64,000 nucleotides of DNA from the NCBI RefSeq assembly GCF_039555335.1, contig NC_092628.1:62044235-62108234 (forward strand). Direction: 5' to 3'. Positions 25,903 to 62,799 of the stretch are shown here, piece by piece. The translations under genes and the position numbers were made by a program. The DNA comes from Amphiura filiformis. Its lineage: Eukaryota; Echinodermata; Ophiuroidea; Amphilepidida; Amphiuridae. A model generated the notes under the pieces. It made no database searches. It was not told the origin of the DNA and saw nothing but the letters and a program-made list of their open reading frames with translations. Position 1 is the first letter of the stretch; every line of letters begins with the position of its first letter.

Positions 25903-26548
25903 GGGTACACGGCCTATTGTTGGTCGAAGCAGCCAAAAAAAACAACCCGATTTTCATTATTTAAATCAATATATTATTGAAAAATTACACTTTGATGTTT
26001 TGCAAAAGTTCATTCTACACATATACTTTGAAAACGTGCCTGATTTATTGTTGTTAATGAGTTATGTACGTCTTACAAAAGTAATGTTGTTTCAGCCCTC
26101 TTTACAACATAACTCAAGAACCACAGGACCTACAAAAGAGTATCTGTGATATTTGAATTCTTCTACACGCCCGCTATGAAATGATCAATGCAATTTTTGC
26201 CAAAGCTCACTACCATTCGCAAGATGCTGTGAACTATACCATATCGCAACAGTTTAAAATAGTTGAATATGTCATATCAATGTCATGAATAATAATGGGC
26301 GAAAATGTTGACTTAACTTCACTTGTTTGTTAAATAATACAAACAAGGGAAGAGGCTTACGCATCATTCACGGGAACATAGAAACAGTCAAACATTAAAA
26401 ACTATCGCACGAGATCAAACTAATGATGCTTAATCATACAGGGAAAAAGAATTACGCATCGCACACTAGCACTATTAAACATGAAATTACATTTGGAAAC
26501 ATGACATGCATAGGCAGATATACCAGAGCAAAAACTCCGAACATACCT
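25903..26548. other. Intergenic, no gene seen
   Basis: AT-rich, no motif recognised; a 114-codon open frame at 26423-26767 crosses the tRNA-like sequence and is not credible as a protein. Confidence 0.4.
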
Positions 26549-26621
26549 GCCTGTGCGGGGACATTGAACCCCGGACCTCTCACTTGCAGGGTGAGCGTTC
26601 TAACCACTGAGCTACACAGAC
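26549..26621 (-). tRNA. tRNA-Ala(UGC)-like sequence, probably a pseudogene or SINE head
   Basis: On the minus strand the 7-bp acceptor arms GTCTGTG and CACAGGC pair fully (one T:G). The A box is TAGCTCAGTGG, the anticodon arm CTCAC-CCTGCAA-GTGAG gives anticodon TGC, and the T arm is CGGGG-TTCAATGT-CCCCG. The T loop is 8 rather than 7 nt and the D stem has a mismatch. No T-run terminator follows closely. It could be a functional but odd tRNA, yet a SINE origin is likelier. Confidence 0.5.
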
Positions 26622-27173: not shown

Positions 27174-28045
27174 TAGAGAGATTGCGATGTTCCAAACGCA
27201 GCACGTGGACCTTACGTTTTCACGCACGTTTTTACGTACGTTAATACTGTGTTAAATATTGCTGGTCTCGGTTCCAAATTGGATTGTGCTCATTCGTCAT
27301 GAAGGAGAACAAGTCGGCTGGAACAAAGACTATAAATCTGATCTAATCTAATCTAGGTCGATAGAGGGCATAGTGATTGAAAAATTAACAGTAAGTGCAG
27401 GCTACTGAGTCTCTGCCTGATTCAAACAGCCCGCTTTTGATTTTGACTAAAATTTTGACTTAACATGCTGTTTAAACTTAATTGTATTTTTGTGCTCCCC
27501 AAATATTATAGTTGCCCAAAAATATATATTTTGGTAGATTAAAGATCACTACATCCATATATCATGACTTTACTTTCAAAATAGACTTTTTCGTCCTGAA
27601 AATTGGGCGCGTTGCATGAACTTCGACATGAGGTAAAATCAGCATATTTCAACGTAGCATCTGCGTTTTATACTACGTTGGAATCAAAAATGGGAAATCG
27701 CAATGTCATTTTTTGTACGCAAAGTATCACACACATTTCAATGGTTAATCACTGCGTATGGACATCGCGTATAAATTTAGTCGATTTTCATCACATCGCT
27801 GTAACTTTATTGTAATGATTTGTTACAAACAAAAAGGATTATATGTTCATTATGATTGACTGTCTTTAACATATTGTGAAATGGACAAATTTTGTGCCTT
27901 TTCAACGATGTATCTACGTTTATTTCGCACGTGGAAAATCTTCAAAACTGGCTAAATACGTGACCTCGCTTCAATACAGGAGAGTGGTTTTAAATAGATC
28001 AACGTACGTCCGATACCTACGTTTGGAATTCGCAATCTCTCTATT
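27174..28045. mobile_element. TIR element downstream of the RdRP gene
   Basis: AGAGAGATTGCGATGTTCCA at the left faces CGTTTGGAATTCGCAATCTC at the right (about 20-bp imperfect TIR). The interior of about 870 bp has no ORF over 70 codons. Its right end lies inside the 990-bp tandem duplication, so it predates that event. Confidence 0.65.
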
Positions 28046-29907
28046 ACTGTAATAATGAGTTTCACGCAAATATGTGTTCCAGGAGACAGAATCACATCTT
28101 TAACACGTTTCCTAGTTCCAAACAGAAAGAAACGAATTCGCGAGCAAATGTTTCACAGCTTTCGTCATCCCGTTCCAAATCTGGTAATTTTGGAATGACC
28201 GTAACTTCTCTTCGATTTCGGCTGACATGTTCGAACCTTCCATTGCCATCCGGACGTGTATGTTCATCTACCTCGGTAACTCGTACTTCGACATCGTTCA
28301 GAAACTGACTACGTAGCTCGTTACTTTGGGCGCGATATTTTATTATGCGCTTATAGCGAACACAGCCTATTTTACTACTGAACTCTGGAGCAACTTGCAG
28401 GTCATCCTCGTCACCTACGATGATAGCTATTTCGGGATCAGTAAATGTTTCGTAATCCTCGATTGCTTTTACATCCTCAAGGCTCAGAATTCGACGCGAC
28501 TGGACCGCTAACCGAAGGTCCTTCACATCCGACAGTGAAGCTTTCCTCTGTACTCGACGCTTGATGTCAAATGCTTGCCACTTGAAGTGAGACAGACGAA
28601 GTTCCATGAACTTTCTGTTGTCATCCAGGACGATAACACCACTCATGTTTCTTTCCATTCTGTACTGCATGTTGTACTTTGATACCCTTTCACTAACTGC
28701 AAAGTTATATTGACTTAGGAAGTTGTCCAGGGCATCAGAAGGTGCATCACTAGGGATAAAAGATGACATGAGACATCGTTGTTGCTTGAGAAAATCACCA
28801 CGATTTAATCCAGTTGGCCTCCTACCCCTTCCTCTTCCACGTCCTCTTCCGCGACCTCTTCCACCACGTCTGCCTCTTCCAGGAAACAACTGAGCAGGTG
28901 AAGAACCATAAAATTCTCACGTGGAAAATCTTCAAAACTGGCTAAATACGTGACCTCGCTTCAATACAGGAGAGTGGTTTTAAATAGATCAACGTACGTC
29001 CGATACCTACGTTTGGAATTCGCAATCTCTCTATTACTGTAATAATGAGTTTCACGCAAATATGTGTTCCAGGAGACAGAATCACATCTTTAACACGTTT
29101 CCTAGTTCCAAACAGAAAGAAACGAATTCGCGAGCAAATGTTTCACAGCTTTCGTCATCCCGTTCCAAATCTGGTAATTTTGGAATGACCGTAACTTCTC
29201 TTCGATTTCGGCTGACATGTTCGAACCTTCCATTGCCATCCGGACGTGTATGTTCATCTACCTCGGTAACTCGTACTTCGACATCGTTCAGAAACTGACT
29301 ACGTAGCTCGTTACTTTGGGCGCGATATTTTATTATGCGCTTATAGCGAACACAGCCTATTTTACTACTGAACTCTGGAGCAACTTGCAGGTCATCCTCG
29401 TCACCTACGATGATAGCTATTTCGGGATCAGTAAATGTTTCGTAATCCTCGATTGCTTTTACATCCTCAAGGCTCAGAATTCGACGCGACTGGACCGCTA
29501 ACCGAAGGTCCTTCACATCCGACAGTGAAGCTTTCCTCTGTACTCGACGCTTGATGTCAAATGCTTGCCACTTGAAGTGAGACAGACGAAGTTCCATGAA
29601 CTTTCTGTTGTCATCCAGGACGATAACACCACTCATGTTTCTTTCCATTCTGTACTGCATGTTGTACTTTGATACCCTTTCACTAACTGCAAAGTTATAT
29701 TGACTTAGGAAGTTGTCCAGGGCATCAGAAGGTGCATCACTAGGGATAAAAGATGACATGAGACATCGTTGTTGCTTGAGAAAATCACCACGATTTAATC
29801 CAGTTGGCCTCCTACCCCTTCCTCTTCCACGTCCTCTTCCGCGACCTCTTCCACCACGTCTGCCTCTTCCAGGAAACAACTGAGCAGGTGAAGAACCATA
29901 AAATTCT
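27928..29907. repeat. 990-bp direct tandem duplication of the RdRP 3' end
   Basis: 27928-28917 and 28918-29907 are repeated with a 990-bp offset, and I saw no difference in the lines compared. The unit starts CACGTGGAAAATCTTCAAAA in the TIR element and ends in TAAAATTCTC within the coding exon. It duplicates the last 276 or so codons, the stop and the 3' flank. Confidence 0.95.
28092..28917 (-). pseudogene. Duplicated 3' fragment of the RdRP-fusion gene
   Basis: Identical in protein to the last 265 residues of the gene (from the RG-rich tract to LELGNVLKM and the stop). It has no upstream coding sequence of its own because the next unit's 3' flank precedes it. It cannot make the RdRP, but could provide an alternative 3' UTR if transcription reads through. 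Confidence 0.85.
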
Positions 29908-32156
29908 CTTGAAATGCTCTTGAACCTGGTTTGCTCTTCGTCAAACTCTCCGACAGTAGCACAGGATTCGACGCCATTTCCATTCACTACGTATACACTC
30001 CCAAACCTTGCGATAGCTCTAATGTCGCCGTGTGATGCTGGATTGTAGGCATTCCGTACAGTCCGAACCTGTCGAAGAAATGACTTCACAAAATGGTCTT
30101 TTTCTTGACTTTGTACTGCGCTCTGGGAGCGTCTTAGCACTGGAACTTGGCAAGCTGTATCATCATGCTGTGGATGCCTTTCACCATTGTAGGGAACAAG
30201 CCGAATTGGATCATCAAGAGTTTGGTAACCTTCCAGTATTGTCTCGTGTGACTCAGAGATGTGAGAGTTTGATAATCGCGCGTTAGTTACAATTGCCGAT
30301 TGGCCTTCAATTTTTTGGAGTTGTTCTTCTAAACGCCACAACGAAAGCTGGTCACCCCATGCTTCTAATATCAAACCCGGAGTTTTAGTGAAGTCTCTTC
30401 GTCTGATGCTGACTTCTGCTCCAGTTTGACGACCAAGACGGGTAGCATTGAAATCTTCAGCACCGATCAAGGATCCGTAACTTTCTTCCGATAAGGTACG
30501 TATCACGTGGCCTTCTTGAGTAGAACCAATGATACCAGTAATGCTATCAACACTACTGCTACATGCAACACTGTGAAAGGCCTGTAGTGAACACTGTCGG
30601 ATCCTCTTCGCCATTGCACTATGTAGATTCAAATATGGACAAAGCACTCTATCAGGAACTGTTGGGTCTTTGATGATGCTAAGATTTTCGGTTCCGCAGT
30701 ACTTCAGGAATCTCACCAATAAGGCGCCTGCATGAATACCTTCTTGAGGACTTTCAGTAATAGATGACCACAGATCAGTTGAGCCTTTCATGTACTCTTC
30801 GCACAAGTGCTGTATCTTGTCGACAGGAATGAGAGTAATATTTTCTTCAGTTGTGACGAAATCAAAGAACAACAAGGAAAAGATCTCTGATCCCATCGCA
30901 TCACTCTGACGATTGCCGACTACATGGTAACGCTTCCCCCACTTGTGCAGCACGACTAGAACGTCTCGTAGCATTGGGTATTTTAGAAAACAAGCCTTGA
31001 TGAATACGCTATGTCGCAAGGCAAGCTGAGATATGGTCACATTCATGACTTCATTGCTGTTATGATATTTTATGTCTAGAGACGTCTCTTCTCGATCTCT
31101 CCGATAATTTACCACACTCCAGGATCTCAGAACATCGACCACCTGTTGCAATGCCAATTCGACGGTTTCTTCAGTGTGTACTAGAAAGAAATTGACATCA
31201 GACTGTAGATGCAAAAGACCGGTTAGTGCTGAACCAATGTGAAGTAACCTAACCTGCAGGTTTTCACTGTTGAGCGCTTCCACGATTTTGGCTGTTGCTT
31301 CTTCCAGCTTCTCTTTCTTGATTGATTCCATGTATTCCTCCACATTTGTATGGTAGTCGTGAATACTCTGATTTACATTGTCGATTGCTTCTTTGGTCGG
31401 AAGAAGTGGGCGTGGGTTAGACATACCCACACTATCATCTTCAGTGCCAGTCTCAGCCGTTTGGGCATTTTGAAGAGCAAGCTCGGCGAGAACATCACTT
31501 ATGACCCATGGAAAACTCAGAAGAGTTTGGGAGGCGTCTTCGCCTGAACCTGCGTGTGACGCTACTCCATAGGTTGCTTGATACCACGCAGCAGCTTTGG
31601 CGAAAGCTCTCGGCTTTACATCAGGTGATTTCCAAGCTCCTTCTCCCCCGAACTCTTGGAAAAAATGACGACGAGTAGTTTTTGCGATGACGCTCATTCG
31701 GCTTTTGATAATATTGCTGATTTCGAAGCGCTCGTTTTTCAACATACCATTGATGCTTTTTACCTGGGTTAAGCATCCGGAGACAATTTCACCTTCCGTC
31801 TTTATGCCGTACAAATTCATGATGGATTTCAGCTTAGAATTGTAGGCGTCCCTTTCGGTTACTGCAACTTCCATGAAGCCTTGTTTCCTTGGATGATCCA
31901 AGATAAGATCAGGTTGTGTTGTTGGCGGTGTAGTTGTGACTGATGAGGCAGTGGTTTCAAGAGCTTGACATTGACGAAACAAACTACCAAGGACCTTTTT
32001 TGACCAATAATGTGGCTTGTCTACTTTCATCATGTAATCTGGATATCTGCTAGGACGATGCTCTGGTTTCATATCAGCTGCCTTTCCTGTTTTGGGGAAA
32101 TCGACAGCTATGGAGTGAAGGCCTGCGAGCTCTAAGCAGACCTTAGAGAAAATGCC
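29082..32156 (-). CDS. RdRP exon 4, C-terminal part: RDR tail, nucleotidyltransferase-like, KH-like, RG tract
   Basis: After the frame break the RDR continues (CLELAGLHSIAVDFPKTGKA, RYPDYMMK, AWYQATYG, SFPWVISDVLAELAL). Counting from the first Met of the open frame (32070-32072), residues about 235-480 look like a TUTase/poly(A)-polymerase domain: IGSALTGLLHLQSDVNFFLV (31180-31245), VMNVTISQLAL, then LRDVLVVLHKWGKRYHVVG and a helical LLVRFLKYCG. Residues about 530-600 resemble a KH fold (GSLIGAEDFNATRLGRQTGA, then PGLILEAWGDQLSLWRLEEQ). Residues about 736-758 are an RG repeat. The last 230 residues are charged and not recognised. Stop TGA at 29082-29084. The NTase assignment is by motif pattern, the KH one weaker. 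Confidence 0.75.
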   Translation of the reverse strand, partial: GIFSKVCLELAGLHSIAVDFPKTGKAADMKPEHRPSRYPDYMMKVDKPHYWSKKVLGSLFRQCQALETTASSVTTTPPTTQPDLILDHPRKQGFMEVAVTERDAYNSKLKSIMNLYGIKTEGEIVSGCLTQVKSINGMLKNERFEISNIIKSRMSVIAKTTRRHFFQEFGGEGAWKSPDVKPRAFAKAAAWYQATYGVASHAGSGEDASQTLLSFPWVISDVLAELALQNAQTAETGTEDDSVGMSNPRPLLPTKEAIDNVNQSIHDYHTNVEEYMESIKKEKLEEATAKIVEALNSENLQVRLLHIGSALTGLLHLQSDVNFFLVHTEETVELALQQVVDVLRSWSVVNYRRDREETSLDIKYHNSNEVMNVTISQLALRHSVFIKACFLKYPMLRDVLVVLHKWGKRYHVVGNRQSDAMGSEIFSLLFFDFVTTEENITLIPVDKIQHLCEEYMKGSTDLWSSITESPQEGIHAGALLVRFLKYCGTENLSIIKDPTVPDRVLCPYLNLHSAMAKRIRQCSLQAFHSVACSSSVDSITGIIGSTQEGHVIRTLSEESYGSLIGAEDFNATRLGRQTGAEVSIRRRDFTKTPGLILEAWGDQLSLWRLEEQLQKIEGQSAIVTNARLSNSHISESHETILEGYQTLDDPIRLVPYNGERHPQHDDTACQVPVLRRSQSAVQSQEKDHFVKSFLRQVRTVRNAYNPASHGDIRAIARFGSVYVVNGNGVESCATVGEFDEEQTRFKSISREFYGSSPAQLFPGRGRRGGRGRGRGRGRGRGRRPTGLNRGDFLKQQRCLMSSFIPSDAPSDALDNFLSQYNFAVSERVSKYNMQYRMERNMSGVIVLDDNRKFMELRLSHFKWQAFDIKRRVQRKASLSDVKDLRLAVQSRRILSLEDVKAIEDYETFTDPEIAIIVGDEDDLQVAPEFSSKIGCVRYKRIIKYRAQSNELRSQFLNDVEVRVTEVDEHTRPDGNGRFEHVSRNRREVTVIPKLPDLERDDESCETFAREFVSFCLELGNVLKM

Positions 32157-35100
32157 TTCTTTTGAATGTCGGCATTAGCAAGGTGTGCGTTGGCAATCAA
32201 TCCCAATTGATCACTGCTGATGTAGTTGGCAACAAATTCTTGTATGTCTTCTTCTGTTACCTCTCTGTTCAGCTTCTTCTTCGGCTGGCTGGTGTAATCC
32301 ATGGCTTCCTGATTGTTTAATATTTGAAATCCTGGAGCCCATGTAACGAAATACATGTCACCATCTAAATCTGAGCCTGATATCTCATTTGGATGTGGTC
32401 GTTTTCCTTTCGACGGGAATACAATGCAATCAACGCAGTGGTGAAGGGCTTCTACATCAACTGCTTGAAACTTGCGTACATCTCCCGGATGGAAACACGG
32501 ATTCTTGGTTACCATAACATCTCCACTAACGATTGTACTCTCCTTCTTCTCGTCATGGATCTTATTCGAATATTGTACAAATACCTGTCCATATTCCAAA
32601 GTTCTTGTTTCATCCATTATCCCCATCATGATCCTTCCTTCCGATATGTCGATCTCAATCCGCGTGCGCCGAAGTAATTCATCCAGCCTGGTTGCATGTA
32701 CTGCATGGAGTATTTCCCGGAAATGAGGATCTGACGTCAGGGAGAAACCGGCAGCTTTGAGTTGGGTAAATCTAACACGTGGTTGTGCACGTAACAGAGC
32801 TTCTAGTGCACGGTCTTCGTCTAGAAACATTTCTGCCAACCGATAGAGCATTTGGTCCTGCCTCTGGATAAATTCTTCGTCCCGTATGCCCAACTGAGAA
32901 AGCAAAGTGATGACTTGACGATTAAGAAACAACTGCCCTGAAAAGCAAAATGAAAACATCCAGCTGTTAATATCGTTAAGAGTGTTTGTAAACGGTATTA
33001 ATATTCACGAGGCAATAAGCCAATGGCAGCGGATCTTTGATAAGTGCTTTTGGTGCATTGACTTTGCCAATACACGACGCAATTTCCGTTCGCGTGTTAC
33101 TGCGTGACGAAGCGCTGTCTTGGTCATTTAATTACGGGTGAGCTATTCTGGGCCGCCAACGATGGATTTTCATTTTACTTTTGATTTGGTAAATTTTGAT
33201 AACCAGCTATCTTGATAACAACGACGGTTCTACGATGTTCATGAACGAGGTTAATGACTTATAATTGACCTTTCATTTTTTCCAGACACAATATACTCCC
33301 CCTTCAAGGTCATGCATTGATCTAGTAGAATATTAAAAGGCCCGTGCATTAATGTTTGTCAATTGCAGTACAAATGAATTATATTCCGTCATTAACCTCT
33401 AATTCAGAGTATCATAAGTTCAAAGAAAAACTTGTCTTTGTTTCAATACCCAATCAGATGTTTTGCTGCTATCTTTTCTGCAAAGTTTTCGACATTTCCA
33501 CACCAAATCGAACCATTTCAGATCTGAAATACTACAGTCTAAACTTAATGTAAGATATCGTTCTCTGTAATTCTTACCTGGGTGTGTTGTAGCCATAACT
33601 TCTAAGCTTTTATGCTTCGACTCGAATTTCTTCATGCTTGGTCGTATTTGCATCACCTTGGTCTTGCCGTTAGAGTCAGTAGGGTGTGGCCAGGTTGATA
33701 CCACTCCTTTGCATCCAGCGTATCTGATCTGGAAGGCTGATGGTGTGCTTTCCATGTCCAATGCTTTTGATACCTGTGGCATTTGAGAGTAAACAAATCT
33801 AGTCAATGCAAGCGGCTATTAGAATTCAGTGGTATTGTGATACTAACCACAGTGAAAAGTTGTATTCCTACGACCAATTGGGTCTTAACCTGAACTACCA
33901 TTTTATCGATCTCAAATTAAGCTTGGCCTATTTACAAGCGAATAGCATTGGCAGCTGAGTGAAAAACAAACACCACGGTCTTATACACAAAATTGCATGG
34001 TTCCTAGCAGACCTTACCGTTATGATTGATTTGATAGGGTGCCTGGTATATGGCAATGTTCGCGTTGTGAAATATTATTTCGAGCTGTTGACTGGATATA
34101 AAAAACGCAGACAAAAAAAGTCAAGAATTTACTGCAAAACCTACGTCTGCTGCTAAATCCTGCGATATTGTCCCAACACCATCCGAGAAGCAGTATTTGC
34201 TGAGGGTTCCACGAGGTGTTCTGTATGGGGTTTCAACATCTGCAATTTCTTGCACGTTTAAATCTTCCACACTCCTTTTTGTGTCTTTAGATGAAGAGAA
34301 AAATTGTCCCATACGAGCCACATAAGATGCTACGCATCGTTCCTCTGATAGGTCACCCATCCATCTTGAACCGAAAGGAATTACAAGGAGTTAAAAAAAT
34401 GTAATTAGACGATAGCATAATATAATTTTTGATACTTTACGGTGTTACAACAAAATATTACATGGTTGCTAGCGCATATCTTTACCGTTATGATTGATTT
34501 GAAAGAGTGCCTGGTAAACAAGAATCTACATGGGTTCTTGTTTGACACAGATGTTTAATTGCATATATTACATTACAATCGAACGGCTTCGAGCAGGAAG
34601 GAGAGGTTAAAATCCGTTAATAAGGAGTGGTGGCGATACAAATATTTTTAATTTACTTTATGCAAGTATTGACTATAATACACTTTTAATTGTGCAGAAA
34701 CCTTTTAAGCATCAAACAATATGTTATGCAATTCTGTGGGCCATGATCTGAAAGAAAAACCAAACGGCCTCAAAGTCTGACAAAGCTCTTTTTAAGTCTC
34801 ATATTTTACGACTTGTCAATGTGTTTTGGCCGTTTCACAGTTTACTACCTTACCTTCTGACGGACTTAATTCTGGTCTTCTGAGTCCCATCTGGAACAAA
34901 GAACCAACACCCGTGGTCTCTAAGTTGGCTATTAGAGCAGGCAAGGAATTCGTAGCATCTAGACCCAACTCGAATACCGTGTTTTAGCACACTCTTAATA
35001 CGGTCCGTGATCTTCGTCATGAAACGGGGGACAGGAGACATGAGCTTGCAGTAATCTTCATCTCGGAATGCCACGCGTAGAAATCGATCGGCACCGTATT

Positions 35101-36433
35101 CTCGTACTGTCCGGTTTTGTACGACCGTTTCAGCTCGAAGAAATATGATCCGTGTTGGTGTTACGACAACACGACGGATGTTGACGTAATGTGGTGGGAG
35201 TTCTTCTGCTGTGCTATCATTTTCAGATACGCTTTGAAGTGTGACGAGCTCTGTGTTCAAAGCCTCCTCTAAATTACAAAATCGATCATCTTCAAGCCAA
35301 ACATGAGCGACATCCGTTATTGCAGAGGCAATAAGGTTTGGTGGAGCTTGAGAAATAAGCTTCATCAGTCCTGGGGTGCATCTATCTAGAAACTTGGAAC
35401 CTCGTGATAAAAGTGATTCCATGGCATACAAAGTATCAAAGTCTTGTAAGGCGTTATGGTCTGGTTTCCATGTTAGAGGCTGATGTTGAACGCCATTGAT
35501 AGCTGAAAAATATACACTAAAACCGTTCCGTTGTAGACGTGTGTAGAGAGGCCACAACGGAGATTCTTCGATATTGGAGCCTCGAGTATTTGCTGCTTTA
35601 CGATACTCCAGACACACTACAGAACATTTGCCAATAGTGTCGGCATTACAAGTCGAATCTGAGACCGATATGTCGCGATTCCACAATATGCCTTCTGTTA
35701 CGATTTGTGGATGCACCACATAGGGCATATGTTCTTTTAGCTCTGAGCTATACAATTTTGGTGGATAAAGCAATGGCAGAAATATGCGGAATCCATCAAG
35801 AAGTACATCAACAATCACATATGCTTCCAAATCGTAGTAACCCATCTCTACCTTCTTCACAATGTCCGTCCCTCTTTCATGAAGAACCACACTAAGGCTT
35901 CTAAGATCATGTTCAAACTTTGCTTGAAGCGTGTGCGTACTTTGTCCAATGCAGGCGTGATTAACAAATGTGTACTGATCTTTGAATGCACCGAATGATA
36001 TACTTTTCATGGTCAGTACGTGGACCGCGTCTGCCTTCTTTACTCGACTATTGTCACCATCATATTGTCGGAATTCAAGCCACCCGGATGTTGAAGAAGA
36101 ATTTTGATGGTCTTCGGTAGGCGGCATTGCTCCCTTTGCCGGGACAGACGAACGGTTACTTCTGCACCACAGCCGACAAAGATCACGCATCATTTGCACA
36201 CCGCTACGTTGTTCCTCAAGACCTATAAAGTCAATATTGACTGATTTCTTGACATCATTGCTGACAACAGTGTTCTCATTCTCAGACCACCTTTCAATCG
36301 TAAATGGCTTGAGGAGCAATTCCACCTGTTCTCGATTAGTTGCAGCCTGTAAATTAGTGAAGGATGCATGTACCTTTTGAAGACGACTGGGAGCTCTTGA
36401 TTTAGCCCCTGCTTCGGGTATGTCGGTAGCCAT
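29082..36433 (-). CDS. Cellular RNA-dependent RNA polymerase fused to a nucleotidyltransferase-like domain
   Basis: Four-exon gene on the minus strand, exons 34854-36433, 34145-34364, 33578-33773 and 29082-32937, all with GT-AG introns that keep phase. The product would be about 1,950 residues: N-terminal region, eukaryotic RDR (QDE-1-type double-psi beta-barrel) polymerase, then a TUTase/PAP-like domain, a KH-like segment, an RG tract and an unassigned C-terminus. RDR enzymes copy RNA into double-stranded RNA feeding small-RNA silencing. They are patchily retained in animals (nematodes and lancelets among others). The ATG at 36431-36433 (MATDIPEAG) sits 3 nt inside the first coding exon, just after an acceptor at 36437-36438, implying a non-coding 5' exon that I did not find. 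One apparent 1-bp deletion near 32155 breaks the frame inside exon 4. Confidence 0.85.
32157..32937 (-). CDS. RdRP exon 4, catalytic part
   Basis: Starts GQLFLNRQVITLLSQLGI and runs to IANAHLANADIQ. It contains the catalytic loop SGSDLDGDMYFVTW, with the three metal-binding aspartates of DLDGD encoded at 32357-32371. GDVMVTKNPCFHPGDVRKFQ and DCIVFPSKGKRPHPNE are the expected preceding blocks. All three catalytic Asp are present, so the polymerase centre looks intact. The frame then ends 8 codons later unless one A is restored in the run at about 32159-32162. Confidence 0.93.
33578..33773 (-). CDS. RdRP exon 3
   Basis: Encodes VSKALDMESTPSAFQIRYAG then CKGVVSTWP, IRPSMKKFES and LEVMATTHP. The PSAFQIRYxGCKGVV and RPSMKKFES blocks are diagnostic of eukaryotic RDRs. 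Acceptor ATGCCACAG and donor CCAG|GTAAGA. Confidence 0.93.
34145..34364 (-). CDS. RdRP exon 2
   Basis: Encodes WMGDLSEERCVASYVARMGQ through YCFSDGVGTISQDLAAD. The ARMGQFFSSS and FSDGVGTIS blocks are hallmarks of RDRs. Acceptor TTCAAG|A and donor GAC|GTAGGT join in phase with exons 1 and 3. Confidence 0.92.
34854..36433 (-). CDS. RdRP exon 1 (N-terminal region and start of RDR domain)
   Basis: 526 codons ending in phase 2 at AGAAG|GTAAGG. The first 420 or so residues are RDR N-terminal sequence with no named motif that I can place. The RDR core begins with YVNIRRVVVTPTRIIFLRAE, then FLRVAFRDEDYCKL, GIRVGSRCYEFLACSNSQLR and WFFVPDGTQ, all signature blocks of the eukaryotic RdRP family. The acceptor TTTCTTTGCAG lies directly upstream. 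Confidence 0.9.
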
Positions 36434-41936: not shown

Positions 41937-42117
41937 ATTCTGTGCAGCTCCCCAAATTCCATTGGGTGAAGGAAGTTTTTGATAACCAAATAACTAATCA
42001 TCGATTAAACAAACTTTATCACGAGGTTCGCCCTCGCAAATAATAAAGGAGACAAGTAGAAAAAGTGATCCCGCCTGGGAATCAAACCCAGGACCTCAGG
42101 TTTACAAGACCTGTGCC
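41937..42117 (-). repeat. Inverted SINE half, tRNA-Thr-derived
   Basis: On the minus strand: GGCACAGGTCTTGTAAACCT (anticodon loop CTTGTAA, Thr UGU), B box GGTTCGATTCCCAGG, then the SINE body CTACTTGTCTCCTTTATTAT. It is the mirror image of 42500-42680, with a TTAA MITE exactly between. Confidence 0.75.
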
Positions 42118-42499
42118 TTAAAGGCTTAATGTACGATTTCCTTCAAATTTTAAATTTGTCATTATATACCGTACTCAAAATGCTGAAATAATACTAGTAA
42201 TAATTATCGAGAATGGTTTCTGTCCATTTTGAGCTGAAATAACGAGGTAATGTGAAAGAAACACTGCTTGTTATTTTGGCCGTTTAACACGCAGTTCTAT
42301 GGGAGGACATAAAGTCATAATTCTTAAAATTATGACTTTATGTCGAACTTTGCTCTGTTTACCTACAAACACAACACATTTGGCTGATTCCATTTAGGTG
42401 CAAGTTGTGACATGTGTAAACATTACAAATATGCCAAAAAATCAGGTTTGAAAAAAATTTACCAAATTCATATTATAAGATCGTACATTATGACTTTAA
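42118..42499. mobile_element. TTAA MITE between two inverted SINE halves
   Basis: TTAA at 42118-42121 and 42496-42499. Same family as 25183-25525. Its centre is a hairpin GACATAAAGTCATAATTCTT / mirrored at 42306-42346. Confidence 0.75.
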
Positions 42500-43289: not shown

Positions 43290-44660
43290 TATGCCTCCTG
43301 ATTATTTTTTGAAGAGGATATAGATAGGACAGTCCACCAAGCATTCATCATTGGTAGCCAATTCGCAATAAAATGCACCTTACAATACGCACCTTCCACT
43401 ACAAGAATGGGTAGTGATGTAAATGTCATATTCTGAAGCAACACCTGGGGCGGCTTTCCCGCCATTTCGGAACGCACATAATTGACGAGGTTAAAGCTGC
43501 AGAAATGACCAATAAAGACAGACCAATAAAGACATACCAATAAAACAGACCAATAAAGACAGACCAATAAAGACAGACCAATAAAGACAGACCAATAAAA
43601 CAGACCAATAAAACAGACCAATAAAGACAGACCAGACCAATAAAGACAGACCAATAAAGACAGACCAATAAAACAGACCAATAAAGACAGACCAATAAAG
43701 ACAGACCAATAAAGACAGACCAATAAAACAGACCAATAAAACAGACCAATAAAGACAGACCAATAAAGACAGACCAATAAAGACAGACCAATAAAGACAG
43801 ACCAATAAAACAGACCAATAAAGACAGACCAATAAAGACAGACCAATAAAGACAGACCAATATAACAGACCAATAAAGACAGACCAATAAAGACAGACCA
43901 ATAAAGACAGACCAATAAAGACAGACCAATAAAACAGACCAATAAAGACAGACCAATAAAGACAGACCAATAAAGACAGACCAATAAAAACAGACCAATA
44001 AAGACAGACCAATAAAGACAGACCAATAAAGACAGACCAATAAAACAGACCAATAAAACAGATAAAACAGACCAATAAAGACAGACCAATAAAGACAGAC
44101 CAATAAAGACAGACCAATAAAACAGACCAATAAAGACAGACCAATAAAGACAGACCAATAAAGACAGACCAATAAAGACAGACCAATAAAAACAGATCAA
44201 TAAAGACAGACCAATAAAGACAGACCAATAAAGACAGACCAATAAAGACAGACCAATAAAGACAGACCAATAAAGACAGACCAATAAAGACAGACCAATA
44301 AAGACAAACAAATAAAGACAGACAAATAAATTCCGCTTATAGCCGATCCACGCTGAGACACATCAAATTCACAACACAGGCATTACAATGGCAGATGTTC
44401 CGATGCAGATGATGTCCCCCACATGGCCAGCGTCCTAAGAAAGCAGATAAGATACACGAAGACACGAGAGCTTTCGGTAACAAAGAGATACTTGCTTATT
44501 CGTAAAACCAAAAACTGAAAATGTTACCAGATATAGAAAGTAGTGCATCAAAAACACAACATGGCCAAGATGGGTGGTTCCTGAGCTTCCACTGCATCAC
44601 TTGGTGGCCAGGTATTATTTGGATTTGATCACATAAACAAATGTTATTATTCTGGGATAT
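43290..44660 (-). pseudogene. GPCR pseudogene disrupted by a 14-bp minisatellite
   Basis: Duplicate of the receptor at 60937-62334. 43300-43380 matches its C-terminal end (FIANWLPMMNAWW), joined with loss of the third intracellular loop and TM6 to TM5 sequence (43380-43500). The middle (TM3-TM4) is replaced by the array 43505-44330. 44335-44640 matches TM3 back to the N-terminus. Several indels and stops. The long open frames across this region (248-378 codons of LLVCLYWSVFIG repeats) are artefacts of the array. Confidence 0.9.
43505..44330 (+). repeat. 14-bp minisatellite (ACCAATAAAGACAG)n
   Basis: Roughly 55-60 units of ACCAATAAAGACAG, with frequent 13-bp variants ACCAATAAAACAG. Three 14-bp units make 14 codons, and no unit contains a minus-strand stop, hence open frames in all three minus frames. 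The seed GACCAATAAAG is present once in the intact receptor at about 61876-61886. Confidence 0.97.
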
Positions 44661-54692: not shown

Positions 54693-55833
54693 GCATCTAC
54701 AAATCTGGATCGTGCAGAAACACTATAGAGATTGAACAACCAGTTCCAAAGGTATGAGCAATTAAAGAGTTTCCAAAACAACAGGAAATAAAAGGAAATA
54801 TTTCCTTTGACATGGCTATATCTCAAAATCAATATTTCCGAGTTCCGACTGATTTTGCTTGATCGCATCACAAATGAGAAAGCTCACGATCTCATGGAAA
54901 GCTGAGAGGGGGTGCGAGAATCAGGGAGTGCCCGCTCTTGAAATGCATGAATTTTACAAGGCCCTGGGTACTTGAGCACCGAAATTGGTTCTGGAGCCAC
55001 TGGGTTACACCGGAGCCACACCGAATAGTGTGTCTACCCGGAGTAAGGGGCTGTGAAATAATTTCTGTCCCTCAGAGGTGGGATAACTTCAAAATAGCAT
55101 GTCAAAAATACTTGAACCCCCACCCTCTCGATGTGTCTCCTTCCTTTTTACTGGCTTGATTTCTGTACAAAATCAAAGCATAAGTGCACATTTCTTGTTG
55201 ATGTATGTCGTTTTGAGTCTTATTATTACAATAAAATAATTGTTTAATATTGCAATCAAATTGAATGGAGAGAAATTCGGATAGATGGTATTGTAGGTAT
55301 AGTAGACTGGTAGATACTTGGAATCCGGAAATGTGTTGTAAAAGAAAAGTATTGTATTGTTTTGGTGTAATATGCCCAGATGTTTAACTGTAGTTTATTT
55401 ATTATGTTTGTAGGTTTGTATGTCAAATTTGGTCTTTAAATAAGTACTAGTTTTTTTATGCATATACACTGTATGTTTGCTGTCGGTCGCTGAGTTATAA
55501 CGTTCAAAATTGTTTGGAGACTTTTGGAACACCCTGTACATGTGTACCTTGTAAATATTATATGCTGCAAATATTTTTGGGAATACTAAAATAAGAACGA
55601 CGCTATCAGCCTAAGTAAATTCAATTGTTTGACCGACAGGCATTTCATTAGAACTAGGTCATATATTTTATAGAAGCCGGAATTTCATCACATGTAGGCC
55701 TACCATTTTATTTATACGTGAAAATTTGTATTTTGCTACTACACTAGTGGTTATATATCAACTATTGAAAGAAAATGCATGTACACGTGAAAAATCTTGT
55801 GGCTCTCAGTTTGACATTTTTTTTATCATTGAG
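54693..55833. other. Intergenic / possible first intron of the UNC93A-like gene
   Basis: 54790-54870 carries one end of the TGCGATCAA MITE. No sequence resembling the N-terminal first transmembrane exon of UNC93 proteins was found here, so the 5' exon is either short, diverged or further upstream. Confidence 0.4.
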
Positions 55834-56612
55834 TCGGCATACATGTCGTTGCAGAATCTTGCCAGTAGTCTATATGCCACCGGTGGCTTAGGACTCGCAT
55901 CTCTTGCCACCATCTACTGCTTTTATGCCATATCATCATGTCCTGCAGCACCGGTTGTAATACGCTTTTTAGGGACAAAATGGGCAATTGTTGCGGCATG
56001 CTGTACATACTGTGTTTATTTCGCTATGAACTTCTACCCAACCTATTACACTTTGATACCAGCAGCAGTTCTAATGGGCATGGGAGCCGGACCTCTGTGG
56101 TCTGCTCAAGGGACTCATCTCACTACTTCAGCTATGAACCTGGCTGATATTACATCGGAGACACACGAAGCTGTCATAAGCAGATTTAATGGAGTCTTCT
56201 TCTTGTTCTTTTTAGCTAGCCAAATTCCAGGAAACCTGGTGTCTTCTCTAGTTCTTTACAGTGGGGTAAATTGTGGGACGCCCAATGAAACTGATCTCAG
56301 TTTCTGTGGTGCAAACGATTGCGGTGCTGCCCCTGCTGCAAACTCTAGTGTTTCTTACACTCCGCAGGTCAAACCACTGTGTATATTCTAATTGGAACAC
56401 TTCTAGCCTGGGGTACCCTATCTATTCCAATGGCAGCGTTCTTCATGAACCCTCTCCAATCTTACTGCCCTGTTCTACCAGTTAAGAGGAGTGCACTGGA
56501 ACAGTTGAAAGCAACTTTCAGATTGGCTCTGTCACCTAGAATGTTTCTTCTTAAACCACTTATCATTTACAATGGCGTTGAATTGGGATTTGCCTACGGT
56601 GATTTCACAAAG
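55834..56612 (+). CDS. UNC93A-like membrane protein, exon A (with one frame break)
   Basis: UNC93 family members are MFS-fold multi-pass membrane proteins, involved in ion-channel regulation or receptor trafficking in studied cases. The exon opens after a T-rich acceptor (ATCATTGAG) with SAYMSLQNLASSLYATGGLG, then TKWAIVAACCTYCVYFAMNF, a loop with CGANDCGAAPAANSS, and TTVYILIGTLLAWG, ending YGDFTK at the donor AAAG|GTATGT. LQNLxSSL, ASL, LGxKWxIV, NFYPxYYTLIP, GxGAGPLWSAxGTxLT are family hallmarks. At about 56360-56372 (CCGCAGGTCAAACC) the frame shifts by 1 bp; the family is continuous across this point, so an indel is likelier than an intron. The first TM exon is missing from the model. Confidence 0.85.
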
Positions 56613-60936: not shown

Positions 60937-62334
60937 TTACATTACATTGTGTCTCCTCTTTAGTAATGACTTCGCCTTTTCTCGAAATGATTTGTTTAAG
61001 AGGATATAAATAGTACAGTCCCACCAAGCATTCATCATGGGTAGCCAATTCGCTATAAAATGCACCCAACCAGGCAAACCAACTTCTTGAATGCAGCTAT
61101 ACATGCTGGACGTCCCATAAGGAAACCAAGCTACACTAAACACGATAGTTACTAAACTAAACATACGAATGGCTTTATTTGAAGAACTATTTGTTGTGGT
61201 CGTCCTATTTGTATCTGAAACTGTGTCCTCTTGTTCTCTTCCATTATACTCATACTGTTTCAGTTTGGCTAATTTATTTACAATATTGACATCAGGTCCT
61301 CCCTGACCATGCTGACCACTAGCAGAGGTAGTTTCATCATATTTTGTTCCTTCATTATGTCCAAGAACGCATCTATAATAATCCTTTTGTTCGGACTCTT
61401 TCGGTTCTTTGTTGCGTCCTGATTGAATTGGACTGAAGGCTTGTTCATTTTCATAATCAACAGGAACGCTTTTGACTTTGTCGCTTAATTCGTTCATGCC
61501 ACACGCTTCTGAATGCAAATGATTTGAGACATTGCTAGAATGTCTTGAATACATGCGGCTACCGTGGATAGTTTTATTTGACAGTTCTGATGACGCCAAA
61601 TTATAATCATGTTCATTTTGATTGTGTGTTCCAGTAATTGATCCCATTCGTGGTTGATCACCAACTTTACGTGTCAGATTTCGGCTGATAAGGTACATCT
61701 TACAATACGCACATTCCACTACAAGAATAGGCATGTAAATTGATATCATATTCTGAAGCATCACCTGAGGCAGAAATATGCGACTTTCCCATTTCGGAAC
61801 GCACATAATGGCCGCGTCTACGTAGGATATCGGAGGCCCAGTTATAAGTATTGACGAGGTTAAAACAGAAGTAATGACCAATAAAGTAATTGAGAAAATA
61901 ATGGCGAGTTTTCTGGTGAAAAAGACAGGATACCATAGCGGCTTCATTATGCTCAATAGCCGATCCACGCTGAGACACACCAAAGTCACAACACAGGCAT
62001 TACAATTGATGAATATAATCAGAGATGTTCCGATGCAGATGATGTCCCCATATGGCCAGCGTCCTAAGAAAGCAGGTACTATCAACGGAACACTAGTGAT
62101 ACCGAGAGTAAGATCGGTTATGACGAGAAGATACATGAAGACACGAGAGCTTTCGGTAACAAAGAGACACTTAGTTATTCGTAAAACCCAGAGACTGAAA
62201 ATGTTACCTGATATAGAAAGTAGTGCATTAAAAAACACAAATATAGTCCGCATGGCCAAGATGGATGGTTGCTGGGCTTCCACTGCATCAATTGGTGGCC
62301 AGGTATTATTTGAGTCAAGTATGGAACTTGACAT
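60937..62334 (-). CDS. Orphan class-A (rhodopsin-like) GPCR, intronless
   Basis: 465 residues from ATG at 62332-62334 to the stop at 60937. Seven TMs: TM1 with the conserved GN (ISGNIFSLWVL), TM2 FMYLLVITDLTLGI (conserved Asp), TM3 ending LSVDRLLSI (DRL for DRY) with a Cys at its start (DIICIG), extracellular loop 2 Cys (AAIMCVPKW), TM5 YMPILVVECAY, TM6 VFSVAWFPYG, TM7 WLPMMNAWWDCTIYILLNKS. N-glycosylation site NNT at the N-terminus. The third intracellular loop is long, about 165 residues, His/Asn/Ser-rich, as in aminergic receptors. NPxxY is absent (position reads D-C-T-I-Y) and TM4 lacks the usual Trp. The plasma-membrane ligand is unknown. Two defective relatives lie at 43290-44660 and 60108-60730. 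(ATTAC)n follows the stop. Confidence 0.88.
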   Translation of the reverse strand: MSSSILDSNNTWPPIDAVEAQQPSILAMRTIFVFFNALLSISGNIFSLWVLRITKCLFVTESSRVFMYLLVITDLTLGITSVPLIVPAFLGRWPYGDIICIGTSLIIFINCNACVVTLVCLSVDRLLSIMKPLWYPVFFTRKLAIIFSITLLVITSVLTSSILITGPPISYVDAAIMCVPKWESRIFLPQVMLQNMISIYMPILVVECAYCKMYLISRNLTRKVGDQPRMGSITGTHNQNEHDYNLASSELSNKTIHGSRMYSRHSSNVSNHLHSEACGMNELSDKVKSVPVDYENEQAFSPIQSGRNKEPKESEQKDYYRCVLGHNEGTKYDETTSASGQHGQGGPDVNIVNKLAKLKQYEYNGREQEDTVSDTNRTTTTNSSSNKAIRMFSLVTIVFSVAWFPYGTSSMYSCIQEVGLPGWVHFIANWLPMMNAWWDCTIYILLNKSFREKAKSLLKRRHNVM

Positions 62335-62799
62335 ATTTGGATTTGATCACATGAACACTTTTGTTTCAAATGAAAATGTCATTATTCTGTCATAATTGGA
62401 TATCTTGAGGATAAAACCCAGCTTGCCTTGTACATGAAATGGAAAGTTGAATATTGAGACTCCTATAAAGCAGAGAGAACCATTCACATCATCTGTAAGC
62501 GTAGGTGTGTTTGAATGGGACGTTACAGTTACCATGGTTACTCAAGATGTTTTGACATCTGATTGAACGATACTGGCAAATGCAATTAAGAAAGTAAACA
62601 CGAATATTGAATCTGGTTGAAAATGTGTCAAACTACTAGCTAATTTGTCGCTGAATATTAAGTACACGATTCTTAGAGAACGTTTTGCTATTATGTTTAT
62701 TTATGGCATTTCAACATATCAATTTTTTTATATTAATGAACTATTAAGATATATAAAACATGCGGGAAAACATATAAAATAGCATCTTCAACAACCTTT
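62335..62799 (-). other. 5' flank of the GPCR, duplicated elsewhere
   Basis: 62396-62690 is also found at 46109-46460 and, in part, at 60530-60680. Contains no ORF over 62 codons; likely holds the promoter or 5' UTR, no element singled out. Confidence 0.5.

Follow-up and report, generated by a model that had tools for sequence, protein, structure and literature searches.

An animal RdRP gene with a probable TUTase-type module, in frame, degenerate and likely catalytically silent, in its C-terminal tail

The RDRC of fission yeast (Rdp1-Cid12) and the Rdr1-Rdn complexes of ciliates pair an RdRP with a TUTase-type protein. In C. elegans, CDE-1 acts with the RdRP EGO-1 and the tails made by MUT-2 recruit RdRP, as described in the available part of PMC7988573, and RDE-3 tails are likewise reported to recruit RdRPs in an extract of PMC12645942. 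Nucleotidyltransferase (NTase) domains of the TUTase type can also be silent: the first such domain of human TUT4, for which Asp412, Asn414 and Arg468 are named, is called 'inactive' in the available text of PMC6488673, and SDVN is found in the first NTase domains of both TUT4 and TUT7 (PDB sequences). As for the function of RdRPs outside nematodes, for those of lancelets a function outside RNAi is suspected (PMC6396948; PMC12373286), and a tick RdRP produces gene-regulating small RNAs (PMC10062562). RdRP roles in non-nematode animals are largely open.

The window analysed here, a stretch of 64,000 nucleotides from Amphiura filiformis, holds on its minus strand a eukaryotic RdRP gene of four coding exons, from 36433 to 29082. 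Pfam family PF05183 matches above its curated cut-off in every coding exon (E 3.6e-23, 2.2e-15, 2.7e-16 and 7.3e-84 for exons 1 to 4, and 2.4e-15 for the C-terminal piece), and the five matching pieces span profile positions 1 to 582. Coding exon 1 (34854..36433) begins with an ATG at 36433-36431, encodes a PH-like N-terminus and the start of the RdRP domain, and ends at a GTAAGG donor; its N-terminus weakly matches PF25359 (PH_met_RdRP, 'Metazoan RdRP associated PH-like domain'), just below cut-off at E 8.5e-6 to 1.1e-5. The RdRP domain continues through coding exon 2 (34133..34364; AG acceptor, GTAAAT donor, phases fitting) and coding exon 3 (33578..33773; CCACAG acceptor, GTAAGA donor) into coding exon 4 (29082..32937; TTTCAG acceptor), which is covered by the ORFs 33004-32132 and 32174-29082 and encodes, in this order, the catalytic RdRP part, the RdRP C-terminus, an NTase-like module, an RG-rich stretch and a C-terminal region. 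Exon borders follow GT/AG and splicing of all exons is in phase; the catalytic motif of the polymerase, DLDGD (32357..32371, of the DxDGD type), lies within the match of E 7.3e-84. Judged by these sequence features, the gene is a genuine eukaryotic RdRP of the RNA-silencing type.

Among viral contigs and bacterial and archaeal genome contigs no relative was confirmed, as is expected of an animal gene; eight bacterial or archaeal and two viral pattern matches were not borne out by tblastn. The neighbourhood includes a rhodopsin-type receptor gene (60937-62346; PF00001, E 4.3e-30) and a gene for an UNC-93-like membrane protein (55633-56391; PF05978, E 2e-11), both consistent with an animal genome. 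The window also contains about 60 copies of the 14-base unit GACCAATAAAGACA at 43507-44330, open in several frames, where the ORFs finish, by eye, with pieces similar to the receptor gene named above. Rfam tRNA models match the minus strand at 26548-26621 and at 42075-42126, the latter over model positions 9-63 of 71.

The RdRP domain is not one open frame in this sequence. PF05183 positions 240-510 are read in the frame of ORF 33004-32132 and positions 507-582 in that of ORF 32174-29082; because the profile reaches 510 in one frame and restarts at 507 in the other, a single base must be out of step within the overlap of the two ORFs (32132..32174, minus strand), as is also apparent from a three-frame reading. 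The disruption falls between DLDGD and the RdRP C-terminus, upstream of a CLEL..LHS stretch for which plant RDR2 likewise gives a match, and the spliced reading terminates after 937 codons, before the NTase-like module. The sequence-only reading had the DLDGD domain continuing in the same exon into an NTase-like segment; the shared exon was borne out, but not a single open frame, as DLDGD belongs to ORF 33004-32132. A programmed frameshift at 32132-32174 was discarded as an explanation, since a canonical slippery heptamer in the right frame is absent, as judged by eye. A second irregularity is an exact tandem duplication with a period of 990 (27928..29908, where 27928-28918 equals 28918-29908), which spans the gene's final 274 codons together with its 3' flank; copies without any difference imply a recent event or an assembly fault. 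Together, the frame disruption and the repeat mean that the sequence is here imperfect or recently altered.

These two irregularities speak for a reading of the locus as a pseudogene in decay, or as damaged in assembly, in which translation would end soon after DLDGD and the C-terminal part would not be made. Against this stand the fact that about 1,960 codons hold just one disruption, the openness of the other exons with their in-phase GT/AG borders, the intact catalytic motif, and the repeat itself, which without a single substitution is recent or artificial. We regard this explanation as unlikely, and take both irregularities as assembly or sequencing faults or very recent lesions; a sequencing fault may be the source of the frame break in the RdRP domain.

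The continuity of the polymerase with its tail is a separate matter. ORF 32174-29082, of 1030 codons, opens with the RdRP C-terminus and runs uninterrupted to the GS motif, at residue 314, of the NTase-like module, whereas in 300 shuffles of its DNA no single frame stayed open for more than 216 codons. Its first part (31452..32168, minus strand) corresponds to a canonical RdRP C-terminus up to about where plant RDR2 ends: it holds the end of the PF05183 match, and phmmer aligns ORF residues 8-241 to residues 903-1122 of 1172 in the RDR2 chain (7roz; E 5.7e-29). Beyond it the same frame continues for about 790 codons. An in-frame fusion of the NTase-like module to the RdRP C-terminus is thus supported at the level of the reading frame. 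The fusion is independent of the disruption, since the latter lies inside the RdRP domain and the C-terminus and module share one undisrupted frame; production of the whole protein by the gene, unlike the fusion, depends on the disrupted point at 32132-32174.

The tail starts, at about 31250-30680, with a degenerate part resembling TUTases and non-canonical poly(A) polymerases (PAPs), in which the palm and first finger helices occupy ORF residues 309-440 (30855..31250, minus strand). The GS motif and the first catalytic Asp are present in GSALTGLLHLQSD (31235-31197); the motif proposed earlier as G-S-x8-S-D-V-N was found at 31235-31191, with a spacing of nine residues and not eight. The helix block LRDVLVVLHKWGKR, also pointed out in that reading, lies at 30971-30930 within the 1030-codon ORF. 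Models in public libraries respond to this region below their cut-offs: in Pfam, MTPAP-like_central (E 0.083) and NTP_transf_2 (E 0.13), with 0.13 and 0.083 on a shorter stretch; in NCBIfam, ANT(9) as the sole match (E 0.088); and in PHROGs, phrog_388 'nucleotidyltransferase' (E 0.29), one of five matches. PADLOC, run on two stretches, gave no matches, phmmer of the NTase-like region against PDB gave none either, and no Pfam NTase model reached its cut-off on the module. Of the profile searches that had been proposed as a check, the one with RdRP PF05183 thus succeeded above cut-off, but those with Pfam NTase models fell short.

Since the NTase models of these libraries have the GS/SD motif in common and do not count as independent of one another, dedicated TUTase/PAP profiles were built from pieces taken from PDB. 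The larger profile comprised nine sequences, namely two inactive domains (TUT7, TUT4) and seven active-type pieces (Trf4, URT1, Cid1, TUT7, TUT4, GLD2 and C. elegans GLD-2); three of these seven (Trf4, URT1 and GLD2) carry Ala at the place of the third Asp, probably because they are deposited mutants. The nine-sequence profile scored 12.2 bits on the module (best domain 10.8, over 126 residues), a score that 1 of 20,000 full shuffles reached and none of 20,000 made locally, within 20-residue blocks; the seven-sequence profile scored 9.8 bits, which 7 and 9 of 20,000 shuffles reached in two runs. When all 691 window ORFs of at least 40 amino acids were ranked, the RdRP ORF came first with both profiles (9.0 bits with the next at 4.2, and 6.5 bits with the next at 3.9, respectively). 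HHalign of the module with TUTases/PAPs gave P 1.6e-4, with a probability of only 24.

A further signal comes from the helical 'fingers' part (30681..30983, minus strand), where PF24934 (DUF7752) matches over profile positions 4-102 of 110 directly after the palm, at E 4.8e-5 and 23.9 bits, below its cut-off of 29. DUF7752 was the sole Pfam match of the 132-residue core alone, and among five scanned TUTase/PAP pieces it matched one, C. elegans GLD-2, at its first finger helices (E 0.0028). The domain type proposed in the sequence-only reading, that of TUTases and non-canonical PAPs, thus finds support in the shuffles, the ORF ranking and DUF7752, with individual Pfam NTase models remaining sub-threshold, and a divergent TUTase-type palm with fingers is, on these profile comparisons, likely rather than proven.

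Further along the tail, a KH-like motif at 30387..30482 (minus strand) is weak: on the segment a seven-piece KH profile scored 9.1 bits, a value that 4 of 20,000 shuffles attained, and Pfam gave no KH match in the tail. The motif is kept as tentative, since with this profile on whole ORFs another window ORF outscores the RdRP ORF (7.9 against 4.1). An RG-rich stretch follows the module at 29808..29870 (minus strand) and would fit RNA binding. For the last 231 residues beyond it (29085-29777), Pfam returned only the sub-threshold FCSD_central (E 0.056), and phmmer against PDB found no match.

Whether the module could add nucleotides turns on its catalytic residues. The SDVN motif (31191..31202, minus strand) retains the first catalytic Asp, D326, and the second Asp of the DxD motif is absent, its place being taken by Asn (N328, codon AAT). 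The place of the third depends on the aligner: HMMER, with few gaps, puts VTISQ (31026..31040, minus strand) there, so that the position is Thr (T380, codon ACC), and assigns SLDIKYH (31062..31082, minus strand) to the VPIVKF strand; MAFFT in three modes and HHalign, with longer gaps, place SLDIKYH on the third-Asp strand, with D367 as the Asp. The low-confidence structural model (mean pLDDT 40.5) has the strands SVVNYRRD, SLDIKYH and VMNVTI in an order that, by our own mapping, matches the HMMER alignment, which lends weak support to that assignment.

An active module, in a single-chain RDRC that would tail RNA for its own polymerase, would take D367 of LDIKYH as the third Asp and tolerate Asn as the second. 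It can call on the retained GS motif and first Asp, and on the placing of LDIKYHNS under the third-Asp strand in the three MAFFT modes and HHalign, but it has to contend with an Asn at the very position at which the published inactive TUT4 domain has one (PMC6488673, in part), with an HMMER alignment that needs far fewer gaps and leaves VTIS at the Asp position, and with the strand order of the predicted model. A tail-adding enzyme is unlikely with the second Asp replaced by Asn and the third possibly by Thr, a pattern known from the inactive TUT4 domain (Asp-Asn-Arg), and we consider this explanation decidedly improbable; the single-chain RDRC with a working NTase, suggested from the sequence earlier, is not supported, given D-V-N at DxD and the absence of the third Asp in the HMMER alignment. 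Going by its residues, the module is probably catalytically inactive and would bind RNA rather than tail it.

Structure prediction was of little help in deciding the fold. AlphaFold2 in single-sequence mode gave a mean pLDDT of 37.9 for ORF residues 262-540 and of 40.5 for a 157-residue core, too poor to judge it, and among the matches listed for the 157-residue model (the best 50 of 893 from Foldseek and 44 from VIA-align) no TUTase/PAP appeared, the model being too poor for an informative search. That the NTase resemblance is due to chance and the region has an unrelated fold would agree with this uninformative structure search and with the lack of any model above cut-off, but is very unlikely given shuffles that reached the score in 1 and 0 of 20,000 cases, the first rank among 691 ORFs, and DUF7752 at the right place adjoining the palm.

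The explanation that we favour, with somewhat better than even confidence, is an animal RdRP bearing at its C-terminus an in-frame, degenerate TUTase-type module of palm and fingers that would bind RNA and be catalytically silent. Such a module would add no nucleotides; as a built-in platform it would keep a template, by its 3' end or tail, or else a protein partner, close to the polymerase, by analogy with the inactive NTase domain of TUT4, through which Lin28/pre-let-7 is recognised on behalf of that domain's active twin, and the RdRP would then copy the bound template into a second strand. In our opinion, a pseudo-TUTase built into the RdRP as an RNA-binding module is a better reading than a tail-adding single-chain RDRC. 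A further step, which we put forward as tentative and rather doubtful, is that this architecture has not been described before for an animal RdRP and that in it the pseudo-TUTase reads RNA 3' ends or tails and so picks templates, bringing the nematode logic of tailing and then copying into one protein. The fusion of a module of the RNA-tailing type would be a testable hint that some non-nematode animal RdRPs choose their templates by their 3' ends and, if true, would join TUT4/7 as an example of a TUTase domain that has kept its fold, lost catalysis and become a binding platform.

No description of an RdRP-NTase fusion was found among the papers listed in the literature searched, which omits most subscription papers, and the main text of Pinzon 2019 (PMC6396948) has no words starting with 'nucleotidyl', 'fused' or 'fusion'. 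The RdRP and the pseudo-TUTase are each of a known kind, and their combination appears to be new. With plant RDR2, QDE-1, EGO-1 and the lancelet RdRPs, all of the PF05183 family, the present protein shares the RdRP domain with its DLDGD motif. It differs from RDR2, whose C-terminus aligns up to residue 1122 of 1172, in having about 790 further residues (NTase-like, RG-rich and unknown parts), and from lancelet BL02069, which is described by Pinzon 2019 (PMC6396948) as carrying an AAA_12 domain instead of an NTase-like tail.

With TUT4 and TUT7 the module has in common the SDVN in place of SDxD of their inactive first NTase domain (the Lin28-interacting module), and possibly also the loss of the third Asp; the inactive domain of TUT4/TUT7 accompanies an active TUTase, whereas the module here sits on an RdRP. 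A test for specific kinship to that domain was negative: a profile built from the inactive domains of human TUT4 and TUT7 gave -0.1 bits on the module, which is no match, and left the RdRP ORF outside the six best listed of the 691 window ORFs, and PF19088 in Pfam was not matched by the module at E up to 10. The D-N pattern common to both may be convergence. C. elegans GLD-2 matches DUF7752 directly after the palm, as does the module here, but GLD-2, MUT-2 and CDE-1 are separate enzymes, of which CDE-1 and MUT-2 meet RdRPs as partners or via RNA tails (PMC7988573, in part). The pairing of an RdRP with a TUTase-type protein is likewise what the locus shares with the RDRC and the Rdr1-Rdn complexes; here both parts are encoded in a single chain, and the NTase part is without at least one catalytic Asp.
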